A stretch of 64,000 bases of DNA from Natronococcus sp. A-GB7 (GTDB lineage: Archaea > Halobacteriota > Halobacteria > Halobacteriales > Natrialbaceae): assembly GCF_029688865.1 (NCBI RefSeq), contig NZ_JARUKV010000001.1, forward strand, positions 248,001-312,000, given 5' to 3'. The position numbers were made by a program, and so were the translations under genes. Shown piece after piece: positions 1,982 to 47,957 of this stretch. A model generated the notes under the pieces. That model ran no database searches. It had not been told where the DNA came from and was given only the letters and a program-made list of their open reading frames with translations. Each line of letters opens with the position of its first letter. Within the stretch, counting starts at the first letter, position 1.

Positions 1982-4900
1982 ATGGCAACAGACCCAATCG
2001 ACTCACGCGACCGATCGACGACCCGACCGGACCCTGCGTTCGATCCGCAGGCGAACTACGACTATCAGAGCGAGGACGTCGAACGACCGACGCTCGTCGA
2101 CGTCCTCGACCGACGCATCGCCGGCGAGGTTCGCGCGGACTCGTACTCACGAGAGCTGTACGCGACCGACGCGAGTATCTACGAGCTGACGCCGATCGCC
2201 GTCGTCTTCCCGCGTTCGACCGAGGACGTCGCCGCGGTCGTCGACTACTGCGCCCAGCGGGAGATCCCGGTGCTTCCACGGGGTGGCGGGACGAGCCTCG
2301 CGGGGCAGACGGTCAACGAGGCCGTCGTGCTCGATTTCACGACGCACATGGACGGCGTCGTCGACGTCGACCCCGACGCCCGCCGGGCAACCGCCCAGTC
2401 GGGGATCTACCTCGGAAGCCTCAACGAGTCGCTCGCCCCCCACGGACTGAAGTTCGCGCCCGATCCGGCCTGGGGCGACAAGAGCGCCCTCGGCGGGGCG
2501 ATCGGGAACAACTCGACGGGCGCCCACTCGCTGCAGTACGGCAAGACCGATGCCTACGTCGAGTCCTGCGAGGTCGTCCTCGCGGACGGCACCCGCACGC
2601 GGTTCGGCGAGGTCGCCGTAGCGGAGCTGCCCGACCTCGCCGACGGCGACGACCTCGAGTCGGCGATCTACGCCGAGGTCGCCCGGATCCTCGAGGAACG
2701 GGGTGAACTGATCGCGGAAACGTACCCCGATCTCAAGCGCAACGTCTCCGGCTACAATCTGGACTGGTTGGTCGAAGACGCAATAGGCGGAGAGCGCGGC
2801 GTCGGCGAACCAGATTCCGAGGGCGGGACGGTCAACCTCGCGAAGCTGCTCTGCGGGAGCGAGGGAACCCTCGCGATCGTCACCGAGGCGACCGTCTCGC
2901 TCGAGCCGATCCCCGCCGAGAAGAGCATGACGTTGCTCGCCTACGACAGCGTCCTCGACGCGATGGCCGACGTCGAGCCGATCGTCGACCACGACCCCGC
3001 CGCGGTCGAGGTACTCGACGACGTAATGATCGACCTCGCCCGTAACACGCCCGAGTTCGCGCCCGTTACCGAGATGCTGCCCAAGGGGACGGCCGCGGTC
3101 CTCATCGTCGAATTCTACGCCGAGGACGTGACCGACGGCGAACGTCAGGTCGCGAACCTGCTCGCCGATCGCTGTCCGACGGTCGACCCCGCCGGCGACG
3201 CCGACCCCGCCGACGAGCGGGTCGTTGCCACCGAGGACGTCCGGGCCTTCGACGCGATCGAGGCCTACGATTCGGAGAGCCGGGCGAAGATCTGGAAGCT
3301 GCGCAAGTCCGGGCTCCCAATCTTGCTCTCGCGGACGACCGACGAGAAACACGTCGCGTTCATCGAGGACACCGGGATCCCGCCCGAGAACCTCCGGGCG
3401 TTCGTCGCGGACTTCCAGGACGTCCTCGAGGATCACGACACCTACGCCAGCTTCTACGCCCACGCGGGTCCCGGGGTCCTCCACATCCGTCCGCTGGTCA
3501 ACACGAAGACCGAGGCGGGGCTCGAGCGGATGGAGTCGATCGCCGACGACGTGACCGACCTCGTGGTGGAGTACGACGGCTCGATCTCGGGCGAACACGG
3601 CGACGGTCGCGCCCGCACCCAGTGGAACCGCAAGCTGTACGGCGAGGAGCTGTGGGAGACCTTCCAGGAGCTGAAGACGGCGTTCGACCCCGACTGGCTG
3701 CTGAATCCAGGGCAGGTTGTCTTCCGTGACGAGAACCCGACAGACATGACTGAGCACCACCGGTTCGGCCCCGACTACGAGTTCGACGCCGGATTCGAGC
3801 CGCAACTCGAGTGGGACAACGACAACGGGTTCCAGGGGATGACCGAGCTCTGTCACGGCTGTGGCGGCTGTCGGGGCGAACAGTCCACCACCGGGGGCGT
3901 GATGTGTCCGACGTTCCGGGCAAGCCACGAGGAGATCCTCTCGACCCGCGGCCGGGCGAACGCGCTCCGCCAGGCGATGAGCGGCGATCTCGACCCCGAC
4001 GAGGCGTTCTCCGAGGAGTTCGTCGAGGAGGCGATGGACCTCTGTATTGGCTGCAAGGGGTGTAAACACGACTGTCCGAGCGGCGTCGACATGGCGAAGC
4101 TCAAGGCCGAAGTAACCCACGAGTACCACCAGCGCAACGGGATCTCGATCCGCGATCGGCTCTTCGCGCACTTCGAGACGCTTGCGAAGGTGGGTAGCGC
4201 GACGGCACCGGTCTCGAACTGGCTGTCGACGCTCCCCGGGAGCGGCCTGCTGACCGAGAAGGCGCTCGGGATCGCTCGCGAGCGCGACCTCCCCTCGTTC
4301 GAGCGCCGAACCTTCGCCAAGCGGGTCGCCGACCACGAGCCCGCCGTCCCCGCAGCTGAAGCCTCTCGACGCGCGCTGTTGATTCCGGACGTCTACACGA
4401 ACCACGAGCATCCCGAGGCCGGTGAGGCGGCTCTCGCGGTGCTCGAGGCCGCCGGCGTTCACGTCGAGGTTACGACGCCGCGGGACGTCGGTCGACCGGC
4501 GTTCTCGAAGGGGATGCTCGATCTCGCCGCCGAGAAGGCCCAGGGAACCGTCGACGGGCTCGAGCCGTTCGTCGAGAACGGGTGGGACGTGATCCTGATC
4601 GAACCCTCCGACGCGGTGATGCTCCAGTCGGATTACCCCGATCTGCTTGGCGGGCCCGCCGTCGATCGGATCGCGTCGAACACCTACGGCGTCTGTGAGT
4701 ACCTCGATCGGTTCGACCTCGACGCCGCGATCGAGTTCGACGCGCCCGCCGACCACCTCGTCTACCACGGCCACTGCCACCAGAAGGCACACGCCAAGGA
4801 CCACCACGCCGTCGGGGTGTTGCGCCGGGCCGGCTACGCGGTCGACCCGCTCGACTCGACGTGCTGTGGGATGGCGGGGAGTTTCGGCTACGAGGCCGAA

Positions 4901-5074
4901 CACTACTCGATGAGCCAGGCGATCGGCGACGTGCTGTACGAGCAGGTCGCGGCCAGCCCGGGCGAGCGGGTCGTCGCTCCCGGTGCGTCCTGCCGGACCC
5001 AGCTCGGGGACAGGCCAGGTGCACCCGAAGAGCCGCCGACGCCGATCGAGGTCGTCGCCGACGCGCTCGAGTGA
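1982..5074 (+). CDS. FAD-linked oxidase fused to Fe-S (GlpC-like) domains, D-lactate dehydrogenase-like
   Basis: Large two-module oxidoreductase of 1030 residues. Residues ~70-600 form an FAD-binding type 4 (PCMH-like) plus FAD-oxidase C module, with LPRGGGTSLAGQ as the flavin pyrophosphate loop and SGEHGDGRART near its end. Residues ~620-1000 form a ferredoxin/CCG module: Cys624, 627, 630 and 642 (Cx2Cx2Cx11CP), Cys688, 691, 694 and 698 (Cx2Cx2Cx3CP), and CCG at 961-962. This architecture matches D-lactate or 2-hydroxyglutarate dehydrogenases of the GlcD/GlpC fusion type, which pass electrons from a 2-hydroxyacid to the quinone pool or another carrier. The exact hydroxyacid is not determinable. 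The ATG at 1982 is used; the gene appears monocistronic apart from the tiny ORF before it. Confidence 0.9.
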   Translation: MATDPIDSRDRSTTRPDPAFDPQANYDYQSEDVERPTLVDVLDRRIAGEVRADSYSRELYATDASIYELTPIAVVFPRSTEDVAAVVDYCAQREIPVLPRGGGTSLAGQTVNEAVVLDFTTHMDGVVDVDPDARRATAQSGIYLGSLNESLAPHGLKFAPDPAWGDKSALGGAIGNNSTGAHSLQYGKTDAYVESCEVVLADGTRTRFGEVAVAELPDLADGDDLESAIYAEVARILEERGELIAETYPDLKRNVSGYNLDWLVEDAIGGERGVGEPDSEGGTVNLAKLLCGSEGTLAIVTEATVSLEPIPAEKSMTLLAYDSVLDAMADVEPIVDHDPAAVEVLDDVMIDLARNTPEFAPVTEMLPKGTAAVLIVEFYAEDVTDGERQVANLLADRCPTVDPAGDADPADERVVATEDVRAFDAIEAYDSESRAKIWKLRKSGLPILLSRTTDEKHVAFIEDTGIPPENLRAFVADFQDVLEDHDTYASFYAHAGPGVLHIRPLVNTKTEAGLERMESIADDVTDLVVEYDGSISGEHGDGRARTQWNRKLYGEELWETFQELKTAFDPDWLLNPGQVVFRDENPTDMTEHHRFGPDYEFDAGFEPQLEWDNDNGFQGMTELCHGCGGCRGEQSTTGGVMCPTFRASHEEILSTRGRANALRQAMSGDLDPDEAFSEEFVEEAMDLCIGCKGCKHDCPSGVDMAKLKAEVTHEYHQRNGISIRDRLFAHFETLAKVGSATAPVSNWLSTLPGSGLLTEKALGIARERDLPSFERRTFAKRVADHEPAVPAAEASRRALLIPDVYTNHEHPEAGEAALAVLEAAGVHVEVTTPRDVGRPAFSKGMLDLAAEKAQGTVDGLEPFVENGWDVILIEPSDAVMLQSDYPDLLGGPAVDRIASNTYGVCEYLDRFDLDAAIEFDAPADHLVYHGHCHQKAHAKDHHAVGVLRRAGYAVDPLDSTCCGMAGSFGYEAEHYSMSQAIGDVLYEQVAASPGERVVAPGASCRTQLGDRPGAPEEPPTPIEVVADALE

Positions 5075-37236: not shown

Positions 37237-38603
<1,367 letters not shown>

Positions 38604-38607
<4 letters not shown>

Positions 38608-39689
38608 CGTCGATCACCCTCCGGGTTCGGGGCGGTCGCGTCGGCGCGGGTCTCGTGGCCGTCGCCGACCGTGACCTCGTAGTCGAGTCCCTCCTGGAGT
38701 TCACCGGTGTACTCGAGACACGCCGCCGCGCGTTCGGCATCCACGCCGGACGCGTCCTGGCCCGTCTCCGGATCCAGAAGCGGGGGTTCACGCTTGGTAC
38801 AGACGTCCTCGGCGTACGGACACCGGGGGTGGAAGCTACAGCCGGGCGGGAGCTCGACGAGATCCGGCATCGTGCCGGGAATCGTCTGCAGTCGCTCGCG
38901 TCTGTCGCCGACGCGAGGGATCGAGCTCATCAAGCCGACCGTGTAAGGGTGTTTGGGATCGTAGTACAGCTCCTCGACGGGCGCCTTCTCGACGGGACTG
39001 CCCGCGTACATGACCATCACTCGGTCACAGACCTCGGCGACGACGCCCAGGTCGTGGGTGATGAGCTGGATCGCCGTGTCGAACTCGTCGGCCAGGCTCT
39101 CGAGTTCCTCCAGGATCTGGGCCTCGATCGTCACGTCCAGTGCGGTCGTCGGCTCGTCACAGAGCAACAGGTCGGGGTCACAGGACAGCGCCATCGCGAT
39201 CACCGCCCGCTGTTGCATCCCGCCGGAGAACTCGTGGGGGTAGTCGGAGTACCGCGACTCGGCCTCGGGGATGCCGACGGTGTCGAGGAGCTGGATCGTC
39301 CGCTCGCGGGCCTCCTCCTCGTCGTGGTCGAGGTGGTGTCTGACCGCCTCGCCGATCTGTTCGCCGACGGTGTAGACGGGGTTCAGCGCCGTCTGGGCGT
39401 CCTGGAAGATCATCGCGATCTCGTTGCCCCGGACGTCCCTGATCTCCTCCTCGCTCATCTCGAGCAAGTCCTCGCCCTTGAACAGGATCTCGCCGCTCTC
39501 GATGCGACCCGGGCTCTCGATGAGCCGCATCAGCGAGAGGGCGGTGACGCTTTTCCCGGCCCCGCTCTCGCCGACGACGCCGAACTTCTCGCCGCGTTCG
39601 ATGCGATAGGAGAGGTCGTCGACGGCGGTGACGACGCCCTCCTGCGTGTAGAACTTGACCGTGAGATCGTTGACCTCGAGTAGTGCCAT
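38604..39689 (-). CDS. dppD: Dipeptide/oligopeptide ABC transporter ATPase, DppD/OppD type
   Basis: A 361-residue ATPase that pairs with DppF. Walker A FGVVGESGAGKSV, signature EFSGGMQQRAVIA, Walker B LLLCDEPTTALD. The C-terminal cysteines are GCSFHPRCPYAEDVC and a later Cys after ~30 residues. The ATG at 39689 is chosen: it follows the dppC stop by one base and gives MALLEVNDLTVKFYT, whereas the GTG at 39698 would overlap dppC by 8 bases. Confidence 0.94.
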
Positions 39690-39690
39690 C

Positions 39691-40740
39691 TTAGCCACCT
39701 CCCTGCCCTTCGATGCCGGTCTCCTGGGCGTCGAAGGCGTCGTTGACCCCGTCGCCGATCATGTTCATCGCCATCACGAACAGGAAGATCGCGCCGCCGG
39801 GGAAGACCGTGGCCCACCAGGGGATCGAACCGCCGGGGCCCTGGATGAGCGTCTCTCGCGTCTGATCGAGCATCGTCCCCCACTCGGCGGTTCCGGGCGG
39901 CATGCCGAGCCCGAGGAAGCCGAGCGCGGCGACGCCGATGACGACGGTGCCGATGTTGAGCGTTCCGTAGACGATCAGCGGCGGCATCGCGTTCGGGACG
40001 ATGTGTTTGAAGATCACCGATCGATCGCGCGCCCCTAACGCCTTCGCCGCCATAACGTACTCGTTTTCCTTGATCGTCAGGACCTCGCCGCGGATGAGGC
40101 GGGCGTAGGTAATCCAGCCCGGAATCGCGAACGCGGCGACGAGCTGCCAGTAGCCGCCGCCGAGCGTGGCGACGATGATCAGCGCCAGGATGAGACCGGG
40201 GAACGCGTAGACGGTGTCGACGATCCGCATCAGGATCTCGTCGGTCCAGCCGCCGTAATATCCCGAGATCGCGCCGTAGACCAGTCCGAACGTGGCGCTG
40301 AGTCCGACGACGATGAAGCCGATCGAGATACTGTACCGGCCGCCGTACAGGAGCCGTGAGAACAGATCACGGCCGTCGCCGTCGGTCCCCATCGGGTGAG
40401 AGAGCGTCGGCGAGTCGTAGACGCCCGCCGACGAGTCGGGGTTCATGTACATGATCGTCGTCGGATCGTAGGGCGCAAGCGAGAACGGCTGGACGGTCAT
40501 TCCCATCACCGATATCGGACGGGCGAAGACCGCGAGCAGGGTGAGAACGCCGACGACGAACAGTCCGATCAGCGCCGACCGGTTGCGCTTGAACCGCTTC
40601 CAGGCCCGCTCGAACCGGCCCTCGGTTTCGCCGCCGCTCTCTTCGGTCCAATCCGACAGCGGATCGCGCTGTCGGACCTGCTCCGGGTCGAACCCGGTCA
40701 CTCGGATTCGTCCGCGCTCGGTGTGTTGCTTGCTACTCAT
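39691..40740 (-). CDS. dppC: Dipeptide/oligopeptide ABC transporter permease, DppC type
   Basis: A 349-residue inner-membrane permease. After a cytosolic N-terminal segment and first helix (RNRSALIGLFVVGVLTLLAV) comes the binding-protein-dependent permease domain, with the coupling helix EYVMAAKALGARDRSVIFKH contacting the ATPases. It overlaps dppB by 8 bases. Confidence 0.94.
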   Translation of the reverse strand: MSSKQHTERGRIRVTGFDPEQVRQRDPLSDWTEESGGETEGRFERAWKRFKRNRSALIGLFVVGVLTLLAVFARPISVMGMTVQPFSLAPYDPTTIMYMNPDSSAGVYDSPTLSHPMGTDGDGRDLFSRLLYGGRYSISIGFIVVGLSATFGLVYGAISGYYGGWTDEILMRIVDTVYAFPGLILALIIVATLGGGYWQLVAAFAIPGWITYARLIRGEVLTIKENEYVMAAKALGARDRSVIFKHIVPNAMPPLIVYGTLNIGTVVIGVAALGFLGLGMPPGTAEWGTMLDQTRETLIQGPGGSIPWWATVFPGGAIFLFVMAMNMIGDGVNDAFDAQETGIEGQGGG

Positions 40741-41689
40741 ATCTGATCCTCGGATCGAGAACCGCGTACAGGATGTCCGCCAGCAGATTCGCCAGGACGA
40801 TGAACACGCCGGTAAACAGCGTGATCGCCATGATCAGGTTGATCTCGCGCTGGTTGATCGCTTCGATGAACTCTCGGCCGAGTCCCGGCCAGTTGAACAC
40901 CACCTCGACGACAACCGACCCGGCGACGATGCTCGCGGTCAGCGTCGCCGCCAGCGTCACAACGGAAATCAGCGAGTTCCGCAGCACGTGCTTGAGGATC
41001 ACCTGTCGCTCCGGGAGCCCCTTCGCTCGCGCCGCGGTGACGTACTCCTTGTTCAGCTCCTCAGCCATCGACGTACGCATCACGCGCATGATACTCGCCG
41101 CCGCCGCGGTCCCGATCGTGATCCCCGGAAGGATCAGATAGAACAGCATCTGAGGGTGGTACAGCGGCAAGCGAGAGGGTGGCAACACGGTCCAGATCTC
41201 GAGCCAGAGCGCGCCGATCAGGATCAACATCAGGCCGAGCCAGAAGTTCGGGATCGAGATGCCCGACAGCGCGACGAACCGGCTGACGGTGTCGGCGAAC
41301 TGATCCTTGTTGACGGCCGCGTAGATCCCGGTCGGGATCGCGATCACGAGACCGAACACCCAGCCGAACAGGCCGAGGACGATGGTCTCGGGAAGCCGCG
41401 CGAGGATAACCGACGAGACGTCCTGGCCGGAGCTGATGACCTCGCCGAAGTCGCCGGTCAGGACGTTCCCCATCCAGGTCAGATACTGCTCCCAGACCGG
41501 CCCGTCGAGACCGTATCGGGAGCGCATCTGGGCCTCGTCGGCTGCGGTCATATGGGGGTTCATCGCAGTCATCTGGCTGATCGGATCACCCGGCGTGAGA
41601 TGCACCAGTCCGAAGGTGATCACCGAGACGCCGAACAGAATCGGAACGATCGATAACAGTCGCTTCAGTATGAAACGTCGTAAACTCAT
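40733..41689 (-). CDS. dppB: Dipeptide/oligopeptide ABC transporter permease, DppB type
   Basis: A 318-residue permease with the usual first helix (LKRLLSIVPILFGVSVITFG), the HLTPGDP motif and coupling helix EYVTAARAKGLPERQVILKH. The ATG at 41689 (MSLRRFILKRLL) is chosen over an upstream start at 41710. The binding-protein gene ends 39 bases upstream. Confidence 0.95.
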   Translation of the reverse strand: MSLRRFILKRLLSIVPILFGVSVITFGLVHLTPGDPISQMTAMNPHMTAADEAQMRSRYGLDGPVWEQYLTWMGNVLTGDFGEVISSGQDVSSVILARLPETIVLGLFGWVFGLVIAIPTGIYAAVNKDQFADTVSRFVALSGISIPNFWLGLMLILIGALWLEIWTVLPPSRLPLYHPQMLFYLILPGITIGTAAAASIMRVMRTSMAEELNKEYVTAARAKGLPERQVILKHVLRNSLISVVTLAATLTASIVAGSVVVEVVFNWPGLGREFIEAINQREINLIMAITLFTGVFIVLANLLADILYAVLDPRIRYE

Positions 41690-41728: not shown

Positions 41729-43666
41729 TCAGTCGAGGTCGTAGTCGTCGATCACTTCTTCGATTAGCTCCGCGGCGGCTTCGGGATCGTACTCGTTGTG
41801 GGGCCGGATGTTCTCCTCGAGGGCGTCGGCGTCGGTCGTCCCGTTCTCCTCGGCGAGCTCCGGCAGGTCGGTCCAGGCGGGACGCGCCCAGCCGTTGAGC
41901 ACGTTGTCGACGATCTCCTGGCGCGGCACGAGGTGGTTGACGGCCCGGCGGAGACGCTCGTCGTCCCACGGCTCGACGTTCATCGGGTACTGGATGTACT
42001 CGTAGCCGCCGGCCTCGACGCTGTCGATGACGTAGTCGTCGTCCTCCTCGAAGTCGTCGAGGACGCCCGTGGCCAGCCCGTAGGTGATGTCGATCTCGTC
42101 GCTCTGGAGCGCTCCGGCGCGACTCGAGTCGTCGGGAACGATCTCGAACTCGAGTTCGTCGATGACGGGGCCGTTCGGGAAGTCCTCGGGCCCGTCGAAC
42201 CACTCCTTGCTCTCGAGGCCGATCTCCTCGAGCCAGTAGCCGTCGTTTTTCGTGTACTCGATGTACTGTCCCTCGGAGTAGTCGCTGAGTTCGTACGGTC
42301 CGGTCCCGATCGGATCGTTGTCGGCGCCAGGGTCGAGCTCGCCGCCCTCGAGTTCGGCCTGCTCGAGCGAGTGGATGTACAGTCCGGGCAGCTCGCGTTC
42401 GGCCTCGGCGTCGGGGATCTGCGCGTAGAGGTTGACGGTGTACTCGTCGACCTCCTCGGCGTACAGCAGCGAGTCGTACGTCTGGGCCTCGAGGTCGGAG
42501 TTCTCGTAGCGCTCGGCGGTCGCGACGACGTGCTCGGCGGTGAGCTCCTCGCCGTTGGTGAACTCGATTCCCTCGTGGAGCTCGTACTGGAACTGCATCC
42601 CGAAGGTGCCGTCGTCGACGGCGTCGCCGGCCTGCTCCGGCGTGAGGACCCGAACCGTGTCGTCCTCGATCGGGTTGTCCTCGGGGTGAGTGACGACGAT
42701 CTGCTCGTCGGTATCGAGGACGCCTTCCTCGTCGGCGTCGACCTCGATCATGTACTCCTCGTAGTCGGCTCGGTCGACGTCCTGGGTCTCGACGAGCTCG
42801 TAGTCCTCGGCGAGCCACGGGTAGAGGTTCCCCTCGCTGTCGCTGACGACCAGCTGCTCGAAGATCAGCACCTGGACGATCGTCGAGTTCGCGCCGGTCG
42901 TGTACGGCGGGTCGAACAGCTCGGGATCCTCGGTGAGTCCGCCCCGGAGGGTACCGCCCTCCTCGAGGTCCGAGAGGTCGGTCTCGTCGGGGTGGGCGTC
43001 CTCGTCGATCCAGGTGACGACCTCGTCCTGGGGGGCGTAGAGGCCGTATTCGAACGTGCTCTCGGTGAACGGGTTCTGACGGAACCCGTGAACGTTAGTG
43101 TTCATCACGCCGGCCTGCAGGTCGAAGTGCGTGATCGAGCTGTACCGTTCCTCGGCGAGGTACTCCCAGATCTCGTCGTAGCGCTCGCGTCGTTCCTCGT
43201 CGTCGTCAGCCACGTCGACGCCGTAGCGGGCGTCGTCCAACATCTGGTCGAGGTCGGCGTCGCTGATCCCGTTCAGGTTACAACACTGTCCGATGTTGTC
43301 GCTGTGGTGGAGCGCCTGACAGAAGCTTTCGGGGTTGAACGTCCCCGACAGCCCGATACAGGGGACGTACCCGTTCTCGGCGTACTCGGGGTCCATCACC
43401 CGCTGAGTGTAGTCGTTGAACTCGTAGGTGTCGATCTCGGTCGTGAAGTAGCCCGACTCCTCCAGGGAGGTCGCGATCAGGTCGACCATCTGGACCCGGT
43501 CGTCGTTGTCGGAGTTGACCTCCAACTGGACGTGAATCGGTGCGTCGTCGTCGCCGTCGTCCCCACCAAGACAGCCGGCGACCGCCGCGATACTTACCCC
43601 ACCAGCACCCTGCAGTAATCGCCGTCTATCGATATCGATTGAGGATTGCTTGTGATCCTGCACCAT
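41729..43666 (-). CDS. dppA: Dpp-type substrate-binding lipoprotein with circularly permuted order
   Basis: A 645-residue solute-binding protein (SBP_bac_5 family), first gene of the operon. Tat motif DIDRRRLLQG, lipobox AAVAGC with Cys32. Residues ~43-220 correspond to the canonical C-terminal lobe (IHVQLEVNSDNDDRVQMVDL, HSDNIG, SDADLDQMLDDAR, ITHFDLQAGVMNTNVHGF). Residues ~237-645 correspond to the canonical N-terminal portion (GGTLRGGLTEDPELFDPPYT, GNLYPWLAEDYELVE, GIEFTNGEELTAEHV, DPIGTGPYEL, RLRRAVNHLVPRQEI) and the protein stops at EYDPEAAAELIEEVIDDYDL, exactly where a canonical homologue continues into its C-lobe. The substrate is probably a peptide but not proven. Confidence 0.9.
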   Translation of the reverse strand: MVQDHKQSSIDIDRRRLLQGAGGVSIAAVAGCLGGDDGDDDAPIHVQLEVNSDNDDRVQMVDLIATSLEESGYFTTEIDTYEFNDYTQRVMDPEYAENGYVPCIGLSGTFNPESFCQALHHSDNIGQCCNLNGISDADLDQMLDDARYGVDVADDDEERRERYDEIWEYLAEERYSSITHFDLQAGVMNTNVHGFRQNPFTESTFEYGLYAPQDEVVTWIDEDAHPDETDLSDLEEGGTLRGGLTEDPELFDPPYTTGANSTIVQVLIFEQLVVSDSEGNLYPWLAEDYELVETQDVDRADYEEYMIEVDADEEGVLDTDEQIVVTHPEDNPIEDDTVRVLTPEQAGDAVDDGTFGMQFQYELHEGIEFTNGEELTAEHVVATAERYENSDLEAQTYDSLLYAEEVDEYTVNLYAQIPDAEAERELPGLYIHSLEQAELEGGELDPGADNDPIGTGPYELSDYSEGQYIEYTKNDGYWLEEIGLESKEWFDGPEDFPNGPVIDELEFEIVPDDSSRAGALQSDEIDITYGLATGVLDDFEEDDDYVIDSVEAGGYEYIQYPMNVEPWDDERLRRAVNHLVPRQEIVDNVLNGWARPAWTDLPELAEENGTTDADALEENIRPHNEYDPEAAAELIEEVIDDYDLD

Positions 43667-43868: not shown

Positions 43869-44435
43869 TCAATCGCCCTCTTCGTCGACGATGACGACCT
43901 CGCCGTCGACGACGTCGACGTTGATCAGCGTCTTGGCGTCGTAGCCGGCGTCCGCGACCTTGTTCTCGCCGCCGGCCTTCTTGATCACTGCAACCGTGTC
44001 GATGACCTCCGCACCGATCTCGTCGAGCGCCTCGAGCACCGCCGCCAGCGTCCCGCCCGTCGAGAGGACGTCGTCGAGGACGAGCACCCGTTCGCCCTCG
44101 CGAACGTCGTTGATGTACATCTCGTTCTCGGAGTAGCCCGTCTCCTGGAAGATCGCGACCTCATCGTCGAGCCCGTACTGCCGTTTCCGGATGACGGTCA
44201 GCGGGATGTCGGTCATCAGCGACACCGCGGTGGAGATATGGATCCCCATCGCCGCGGGCGTGACGATCCGGTCGACGTCCTCGAGATCGGCCTTCCGGAT
44301 GATGCGGATGACGATCTCCCGCAGCAGGCCGGGGTCGAGCTTCGGGACGCCGTCACTGATCGGGTGGACGAAGTAGTGGTAGCCGTCTTTCTCGATGATC
44401 GGCGCCTCGAGGAGCGACCGCTTCAGCTGGTCCAT
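43869..44435 (-). CDS. hpt: Hypoxanthine/guanine phosphoribosyltransferase
   Basis: A 188-residue purine-salvage enzyme that joins hypoxanthine or guanine to PRPP. The PRPP loop is [20 protein letters not shown], followed by a flexible loop and the C-terminal strand [12 protein letters not shown]-like segment. The ATG at 44435 ([20 protein letters not shown]) is the family start; the longer frame is spurious. Some archaeal members prefer adenine, so the base preference is by family only. Confidence 0.93.
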
Positions 44436-44594
44436 GTCGTGGGTCGGACGGTAGGCGAGTAAAAGTTGACGATACACGCCGGAGCCGTCCGCGCCGAATC
44501 GTCCGTATTGCGGCTCTATCACCGGCATCGAGCGCTGTGAGCGAGCCACACGGCCGTCGGAGCGCGATCTCGGAACCCCGACGTGTCGCCGGCC

Positions 44595-45845: not shown

Positions 45846-47957
45846 TTACGGGTCGATCAGATCCCGTCCGCGCGCCGAGAGCGGGTTCGCGACCTCGCTG
45901 GTCACGTACTCGTGGCGCTTGCCCCGCAGGCGCATCGCGGTCAGGGCCTTGTGGGGCGTCGACGCCGCGAACAGCGCGCGTTCGTCGCGCTCGAGGCGGT
46001 CCGCGGGAACCGACCCCTCGGCTCGGATCGCCTCGAACGCGCGCTCGCAGCGATCCGCGATCCGCTCCCAGCAGACCCGCTCGTCGACCGGGAACTCGTC
46101 GGCGACCGTCGCGACCAGCTCCGCGAGGTGGTTCTGGAACAGCGCGTAGTGCAGCTTCCGGTAACAGTCCACGGCGTCGTCGGCCTCGAGGTCCGAATCC
46201 GGGTAAGGATCGAGCGAGAGGCCGCGCTCGGCGAGCCGATCCCGGTGGACGCGGATCCCGCCGAGATCGCGAACCAGCGTCGCGACGGGCTCGGCGTCCT
46301 CGAGGACGATCAGACTGTTCTGGAGGTGGCTCTCGAGGGCGACCCCGTACTCGCTCAGCAGGGCCAGCTGCTCGGGGACGACGACGGCGGCGTAGCGCTC
46401 GAGGAACAACAGCGCCGCCTCACCGGCCGTCGACGCCCCCGTTCGATCGCCGTAGCGCTCGATCAGCTCGCAGACGAGCGGGCGCCCGGTCGTCGGCGCG
46501 TCGGCGACCAGGCTCGAGGCGACCACCGGAACGCCGTCTTCGGGGACGAGCGGATGCTCGGCCGGGTTCTCCCGCAGCAGCCCCGAGAGGTGACGGGCGT
46601 CGTCGAACGCCTCGCCCTCGGGGTGGGGACCGCCCGGCGGATAGTAACAGGTTGCGGCCGGCTCGGCGAGCAGCCCCAGTCGATCGAGGTCCTCTCGCCG
46701 CTCGATCTCCCGGACGACGTCGGTTACCTGCGGCCCGTTCGAGACGGCGTGGGGCGACAGCGTCCGCACGACGTTGGTCGTCTGAACCGGAATCGCGAGC
46801 TTGAGATGTGGGAGCGGACCGTCGGCGGTCCGCTCGGTTTCGTAGGGAACGACGGTCCGGAGGTTGAGCTGTGGCGTCACCGGTACCGCGTAGTCGGCGA
46901 TCGGAACGACCCGTCCGTCCTCGATCCCGTCCGCGTACCGTTCGGGAATCGTTCGGTGGTACTGCAGCGGGTGGACGGGGACGACCGCGTACGACTCCCT
47001 CGCGCGACCCGCGGGGATCGCTCGCTCGAGTGCGCCCTCGAGGCCCTCGAACGTCGCGTACAGGCGATCGGTCAGCCGTCCGTCCTCGGCCGCTTCTGCT
47101 CGTGTCTCGAGGGCGTACTCCCGGTCGACGGCGACGAACCGGAGATCGACCCGATCGGTGAACTCGGGCGCGTACGCGAGGCCGTCGGCGGCGTTCATGC
47201 CCCGACGGATCTTTCCGGCGGGGTGGAACGGGTGGCCGTCGGTGACGATCCGTTCGAAGGCGGTCGCGGCGTCGGCACTCGGGACGCCCGTCGCGACGGC
47301 CTCGAGGATCGACTCGCTCGCGGCGACGGCCGTCTCGACGGCTCGCGCGTGGACGGGCCTCGCCAGCCGCGCTAACGCGAGGTTAGCGACGCTCTCGGAA
47401 ACCTCGAGGCGGATCCGCTCGGCCTGCTCGGCGTCGCTGAACGCCCCCTCGCGCTCGAGCAGCGGAACGAGGTCGACCGGATGCTCGAGCCCTCGACGTC
47501 CGCCATCGAATCCCGCCGACTCGGGCGACCGGCGCATCGGTCCGGCGAACCGAAAGCGGTCGTAGCCGTGTCTCGCCGCGATCGGAGCCACCAGCACCGT
47601 TTCGGAGGCCGGCAACGGTATCAGCGCGAGCCGACACCACCACTCGGGTAGCGGATCGACGAGCGACCGGAGTTCGGTCGCCTCGAGACCCTCGAGCGGA
47701 GCCGGCTCGTCCGGAACGGTTGGATCTGCCGGGTCGACGAACCTGAAGTCGGGGAGGCCCGCCGGCCGGCCGCGAAGCAGTCCCCGAACGAAGCGGCGGA
47801 GGATCTCTCGGCGGGCCCCTGGAAGCGCCTCGAGGTACGCCGCCTCGGCCGGAACGCTGAGATCGTTCGCACGCGCGTAGCCGGTAGCCGCGCCGAGGCT
47901 CTCCCGCTCGGCGCTCGTTCGGAGCCGAACCGACTCGCCGTCGAGGCGTTCGCTCAT
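45846..47957 (-). CDS. IucA/IucC-family siderophore synthetase
   Basis: A 703-residue NRPS-independent siderophore (NIS) synthetase, an ATP-dependent ligase that forms amide or ester bonds between citrate-type acids and amines. The ATP/citrate motif TDGHPFHPAGKIRRGMN is intact near residues 230-250, and the C-terminal FhuF-like region contains the ESHLQN motif. No partner monooxygenase, acetyltransferase, transporter or receptor is adjacent, unlike in full siderophore clusters, so the product is unknown. A flavoprotein lies just upstream. Confidence 0.92.
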   Translation of the reverse strand: MSERLDGESVRLRTSAERESLGAATGYARANDLSVPAEAAYLEALPGARREILRRFVRGLLRGRPAGLPDFRFVDPADPTVPDEPAPLEGLEATELRSLVDPLPEWWCRLALIPLPASETVLVAPIAARHGYDRFRFAGPMRRSPESAGFDGGRRGLEHPVDLVPLLEREGAFSDAEQAERIRLEVSESVANLALARLARPVHARAVETAVAASESILEAVATGVPSADAATAFERIVTDGHPFHPAGKIRRGMNAADGLAYAPEFTDRVDLRFVAVDREYALETRAEAAEDGRLTDRLYATFEGLEGALERAIPAGRARESYAVVPVHPLQYHRTIPERYADGIEDGRVVPIADYAVPVTPQLNLRTVVPYETERTADGPLPHLKLAIPVQTTNVVRTLSPHAVSNGPQVTDVVREIERREDLDRLGLLAEPAATCYYPPGGPHPEGEAFDDARHLSGLLRENPAEHPLVPEDGVPVVASSLVADAPTTGRPLVCELIERYGDRTGASTAGEAALLFLERYAAVVVPEQLALLSEYGVALESHLQNSLIVLEDAEPVATLVRDLGGIRVHRDRLAERGLSLDPYPDSDLEADDAVDCYRKLHYALFQNHLAELVATVADEFPVDERVCWERIADRCERAFEAIRAEGSVPADRLERDERALFAASTPHKALTAMRLRGKRHEYVTSEVANPLSARGRDLIDP

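Follow-up and report, generated by a model that had tools for sequence, protein, structure and literature searches.

Results

The Binding-Protein Gene and Its Operon

The window, which here means the whole 64,000-nucleotide stretch of Natronococcus DNA that was analyzed, contains a gene (ATG start, TGA stop) at the head of an intact dppBCDF operon (Table 1). Its product is very likely a lipid-anchored SBP_bac_5 (family 5, cluster C) binding lipoprotein, DppA-type, of a Dpp/Opp-type ABC importer; substrate binding and delivery are inferred, and there are no binding data. PF00496 (SBP_bac_5) is the only Pfam family that matches this binding protein (SBP) at E <= 0.001. The BPD_transp_1 permeases and oligo_HPY ATPases occur directly downstream, as the first-pass annotation had held in calling the operon complete, and this link is kept in relatives. 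A siderophore synthetase gene of the IucA/IucC plus FhuF type is located at 45846-47957, three genes upstream of that for the SBP.

The protein starts with MVQDHKQSSIDIDRRRLLQG..AVAGC and ends with ..EYDPEAAAELIEEVIDDYDLD. We refer to the opening, the middle, and the C-terminal segment of canonical family-5 proteins as blocks A, B, and C. In the window protein, the signal and lipobox are followed by block C, then block A, and finally block B, the start of which lies at about residue 321/326. The end of block B is a helix that continues into block C in canonical forms. The dppB ATG is located 39 bp past the SBP stop, and there is no space for a residual C block.

Table 1. Features of the SBP gene and its surroundings in the window
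Feature	Position	Strand	Basis
SBP_bac_5 lipoprotein gene, very likely circularly permuted, C-A-B block order, 645 aa	41729..43666	-	structure-sequence and Pfam matches; order conserved in homologues
Twin-arginine type signal (RRR) and lipobox (AGC); lipid-anchor Cys is residue 32	43571..43666	-	sequence reading; C-A-B homologues arranged alike
Acidic linker, 10 residues (33-42), from lipidated Cys to block C	43541..43570	-	junction comparison
Block C, residues 43-225, C-terminal segment of canonical family-5 binding proteins	42992..43540	-	homology matches
C-to-A linker, residues ~226-236, like the canonical mature N-terminus (e.g., VDFADLQEGG)	42959..42991	-	junction comparison
Block A, residues 237-320, canonical opening	42707..42958	-	homology matches
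Block B, residues 321-645, canonical middle	41732..42706	-	Pfam, junctions, model
AT-rich TATA-like stretch, ~25-35 bp 5' of the start codon	43688..43700	-	sequence reading only
dppB permease	40733..41689	-	Pfam
dppC permease	39691..40740	-	Pfam
dppD ATPase	38604..39698	-	Pfam
dppF ATPase	37237..38607	-	Pfam
Phosphoribosyltransferase gene, upstream	43869..44549	-	left neighbor common to C-A-B, A-B-C, and B-C-A forms; marks the locus as orthologous

Evidence for the Rotated Order

In phmmer searches against 5u4o, 3m8u, and 1xoc, residues 357-600 of the window protein align with the middle of the chain and residues 40-209 with its C-terminus, while residues 234-293 align with the chain N-terminus of 5u4o and 1xoc. 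When residues 43-225 are searched alone, they match only the last third of 3m8u (351-505, E = 3e-5); block C on its own has no significant match in Pfam. PF00496 matches the protein in one stretch (residues 356-637, E = 1.3e-52, profile 16-275), so that of its 368 profile positions the match stops at 275, as compared to 339-358 in canonical relatives. The canonical N-to-C order of the segments is absent, and the order is C-A-B within a single open reading frame. The motifs quoted in the first-pass annotation are all found where it had placed them, and rejoining 237-645 to 43-220 gives 587 residues, as it had calculated. It had also named two results that would have refuted a permutation, and neither was obtained. 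Residues 43-220 are not an unrelated separate fold, since they are homologous to the segment that ends canonical chains, and residues 237-645 are not a complete normal SBP, as the C-terminal segment is missing and the protein ends where canonical homologues continue.

The junctions locate the cut. The canonical joint between B and C reads ..EEVVDDLGLDT-PIEIQLEVNADN.., and C-A-B genes end at ..EEVIEDHDLD, followed by the stop, and resume after the lipobox with ..DAPFDIQLEVNSDN. The cut site is a loop that leads from a helix (628-641 in the model) to a strand (44-51). On the basis of general knowledge of the family, we place the new termini in domain III (the C-lobe), toward the end of the canonical chain. 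The C-to-A linker, ..WMDEDAHPDDTDLSDLQEGGTLR, resembles the native C-terminus followed by the former N-terminus of the mature protein (canonical genes have VDFADLQEGGTLR), with the signal absent. The acidic new linker that had been proposed is present as a short acidic segment at ~226-236 joining the two native termini.

The lipid-anchor tether also differs, with a median length of 29 residues for A-B-C proteins, where 24-41 residues separate Cys and block A, versus 11 in C-A-B proteins overall; the C-A-B tether has 7-12 residues in Natrialbaceae members and up to 36 elsewhere. The window protein would be anchored through a short linker on its C-lobe, beside a late-chain strand, with the anchor in what we take to be domain III, again from family knowledge, versus domain I for the native N-terminus. 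We infer that substrate would be bound and delivered to DppBC as by a normal DppA.

Predicted Structure

Structure prediction, which the first-pass annotation had suggested as a check, was carried out on the native order and compared with that of a canonical sister, L122. AlphaFold2 predicts one confident fold for the window protein (50-row alignment, pLDDT 89.1, pTM 0.85), and for L122 the corresponding values are 86.2 and 0.83. With the window protein rotated, the secondary-structure state is the same as that of L122 in 568 of 591 aligned residues (96%); without the rotation, the alignment spans only 484 residues. Foldseek, which is order-dependent, matches L122 to 1xoc over the full length (623 columns, TMt 0.83) and the permuted model to 1xoc over 433 columns (TMt 0.51), which is about two thirds of the model. 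Such partial recovery of a predicted model is the signature expected of a rotation. The best PDB matches of the permuted model are family-5 type SBPs. The models thus predict that the two-lobed family-5 fold is retained despite the rotation, although the support for equivalence in three dimensions is limited to pTM, secondary structure, and homology.

Conservation of the Permuted Order

The survey comprised 125 family genomes and 392 order genomes, with neighborhoods up to 20 kb. Among 87 loci, 41 are C-A-B, 45 are A-B-C, and 1 is B-C-A. There are therefore at least 41 single-ORF homologues with the C-A-B order, and later family scans added more of both the C-A-B and A-B-C forms. The C-A-B form is found in three haloarchaeal families (coded f1, f4, and f5). 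In a scan of GTDB contigs, homologues 67-98% identical to the window protein, from Natronococcus, Natronorubrum, Halobiforma, and MAGs, are collinear with it over residues 1-645; the Halostagnicola match (L007) has the canonical order. Whether the permuted order is conserved, a question that the first-pass annotation had left to a homologue search, is thus answered in the affirmative across genera and families, and conservation in so many genomes shows that the order is due neither to chance nor to misassembly. In every form dppB is directly downstream, and the phosphoribosyltransferase gene is upstream in many loci of each type. As these surroundings are the same, the forms are orthologues at one locus. 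In each block dN/dS is 0.05-0.32 in all close pairs tested; blocks A, B, and C are all under purifying selection.

Some genomes contain additional dpp operons. At L073, L075, and L076 (G022, G019, and G018), the C-A-B operon is accompanied by a canonical paralogous dpp operon ~11 kb away in the opposite orientation, at 40-44% identity, which provides a natural internal control. In several f5 genomes (upstream flanks of L097, L100, and L105), a second, distant dpp operon in divergent orientation lies directly upstream of the permuted operon. Block C also contains a vicinal Cys-Cys-Asn motif (GQCCN, window 43280-43285, residues 128-129), both Cys of which are invariant in 52 of 52 homologues of the final tree, in any block order. 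Nearby are two more frequent Cys, at residues 103 (28/52) and 116 (39/52). A disulfide, metal, or ligand role for these cysteines is possible.

A Third Rotation

The B-C-A form is known from one MAG contig only (L094, genome G138, 76% complete; 2909-4909, minus strand). This SBP consists of signal, lipobox, Thr/Pro linker, B, C, A, and stop, is in frame across all junctions, and has the same operon context. The PF00496 match runs to profile position 332 in this form. Its termini are located in a variable acidic loop between A and B, unlike those of the C-A-B proteins. Its sister, L158 (G542), is canonical (support 100/100).

History of the Block Order

In a tree restricted to Natrialbaceae, the C-A-B genes form one clade with weak support (59/57). 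In the all-family tree, however, canonical genes fall inside the C-A-B clade, namely L122 and an f14/f4 clade. L122 (A-B-C) and L095 (C-A-B) are sisters (100/100) with 73% identity, and they pair in separate trees of A+B (99/95), C (99/90), and dppB+dppC (100/99). C-A-B monophyly is rejected by the AU test (p = 7e-5), and more weakly when L122 is left out (p = 0.016). A single origin of C-A-B as one clade, which had been entertained, fell once other families were added and returns only without L122 and the f14/f4 canonical genes.

The final tree contains 52 rows, with 39 of 49 inner branches starred. Throughout the 5-95% bootstrap range, it requires three changes between C-A-B and A-B-C, and one more for B-C-A. 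On the trees, the block order at this locus has therefore changed at least four times, the third rotation included; the direction of these changes is inferred. More than one change of order is well supported. The cheapest history has one C-A-B gain and two reversions to canonical, at a cost of 3, its direction being unproven; independent C-A-B gains cost ~7 on the final tree by hand count. The B-C joint of L122 (EELEGDIDFPIEV) and its N-linker appear newly made, which favors reversion in L122, but the nested f14/f4 canonical genes have an ancestral-looking B-C joint, which argues against reversion there. Because the junctions disagree between L122 and the f14/f4 genes, the direction of change is undecided. 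Both the repeated change and the third rotation go beyond what could be seen by the first-pass annotation.

Discussion

Alternative Explanations

We consider it very likely (probability ~0.93) that the window chain is a true circular permutation of a canonical family-5 binding protein, as the first-pass annotation had proposed. The swapped order, its conservation, the canonical orthologues at the same operon position, the purifying selection, and the confident single fold of the prediction carry this reading; there are no experimental structure, ligand, or expression data. An assembly artefact or a decaying pseudogene is all but excluded, since no evidence was found to support either, and 41 or more genomes, drawn from many assemblies, carry the gene as a single open reading frame, with purifying selection in all blocks. 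A chimera, in which block C of another paralogue was fused before a truncated SBP, would be formally possible from one genome alone. It is very unlikely, however, as the A+B and C trees share major groupings, the two parts are equally similar, or nearly so, to their counterparts in close canonical orthologues (60% and 60% for G099, for example), and paralogues from the same genome are only ~29% identical.

Other alternatives accept the permutation and concern its history. The C-A-B order may have originated several times independently at the same loop, with the nested canonical genes never having been permuted. In favor of this are the ancestral-looking B-C joint (EDLGLEYPLEV, DDTGIETPIEV; outgroup DDLGLDTPIEI) and N-terminus (VDFADLQEGG; compare IDFEDIIEGG) of the nested f14/f4 genes. 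Against it are the ~7 gains needed in place of one gain and two losses and the xxPxxTDLSDLQEGG element common to the C-A-B linkers of f1, f4, and f5, though the latter may itself come from the old N-terminus. On balance we lean away from independent origins. It is also possible that the C-A-B and A-B-C orders represent two old allele types, between which homologous recombination has swapped blocks without any re-permutation, and block-wise exchange of this kind could conceivably mimic the nesting of canonical genes. Haloarchaea are known to recombine freely, and in the dppBC tree, too, the types are intermingled, with L077 in a position other than that in the SBP tree. However, the L122-L095 pairing recurs in the A+B, C, and dppBC trees, and several concordant replacements that spared the order would be needed to produce it; we consider such an exchange rather unlikely. 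Set against these alternatives is a bolder reading, recurrent permutation at one haloarchaeal locus that includes a true return to the ancestral order, with three rotations coexisting in the same operon position. We regard this as no more probable than its negation, and no less; if true, it makes chain order a reversible evolutionary character rather than a once-only accident.

Origin of the Permuted Gene

The simplest route to the window gene would be permutation by duplication with retention of the signal. In this scheme, the SBP gene would be duplicated in frame, copy 1 would lose the stretch from the lipobox to block C, and a stop would arise after block B of copy 2. The tandem duplication put forward in the first-pass annotation is plausible in that the C-to-A linker resembles the old mature N-terminus, but it remains an inference, as no remnant or intermediate has been found. 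No remnants of A, B, or C flank the SBP genes, the only matches being in neighboring SBP operons, and the gap from the stop to dppB is -24 to 94 bp. Three weak remnant matches (L097, L100, and L105) were rejected, as they belong to neighboring divergent dpp operons. Among the 87 loci, there is no tandem-duplicated or part-trimmed intermediate, and no split halves were found apart from contig-edge fragments.

Comparison with Known Systems

Circular permutation is usually inferred from distant protein pairs. Here, permuted and canonical orthologues with 57-73% identity occupy the same operon, so that the path, cost, and direction of permutation can be tested in living relatives. There is a practical consequence as well, in that order-dependent searches drop the last quarter of permuted SBPs (the Pfam match stops at profile 275/368).

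The window protein shares with the canonical family-5, cluster C proteins DppA, OppA, AppA, and NikA its Pfam family, predicted fold, lipoprotein signal, dppBCDF operon, and, once rejoined, normal length. It differs from them in that the chain is rotated, so that a late-chain loop, and not the canonical ends, now provides the termini and the site of the lipid anchor, and in that the tether is shorter in the Natrialbaceae C-A-B members. Permutation by duplication is known from saposin/swaposin and DNA methyltransferases (PMC3320104), for which the proposed mechanism of origin is the same; in the SBP, however, the rearrangement took place at a single operon locus, with the added constraint that signal peptide and lipobox keep their place at the front. 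In the literature searched, no permuted SBP has previously been described from family 5 or from haloarchaea. A further likeness is Tp0684 (MglB-2, "Type Ic / Cluster Bc") of Treponema pallidum, a tethered ABC-importer binding protein whose natural circular permutation was shown by crystallography and whose topology its authors linked to tethering (PMC4990184). The passages of that paper that bear on this make no mention of several rotations or of order reversal among orthologues (PMC4990184). Tp0684 is a bacterial, sugar-binding cluster B protein of an unrelated family with a different cut, and the window SBP is not cluster B. Whether the position of the lipid anchor matters for docking of the SBP with the permease, as suggested for tethered Tp0684, can likewise be tested with the haloarchaeal forms. 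A permuted binding protein as such is therefore already known from Tp0684, and what is new here is its occurrence in family 5 and in archaea, together with a recurrently labile order.
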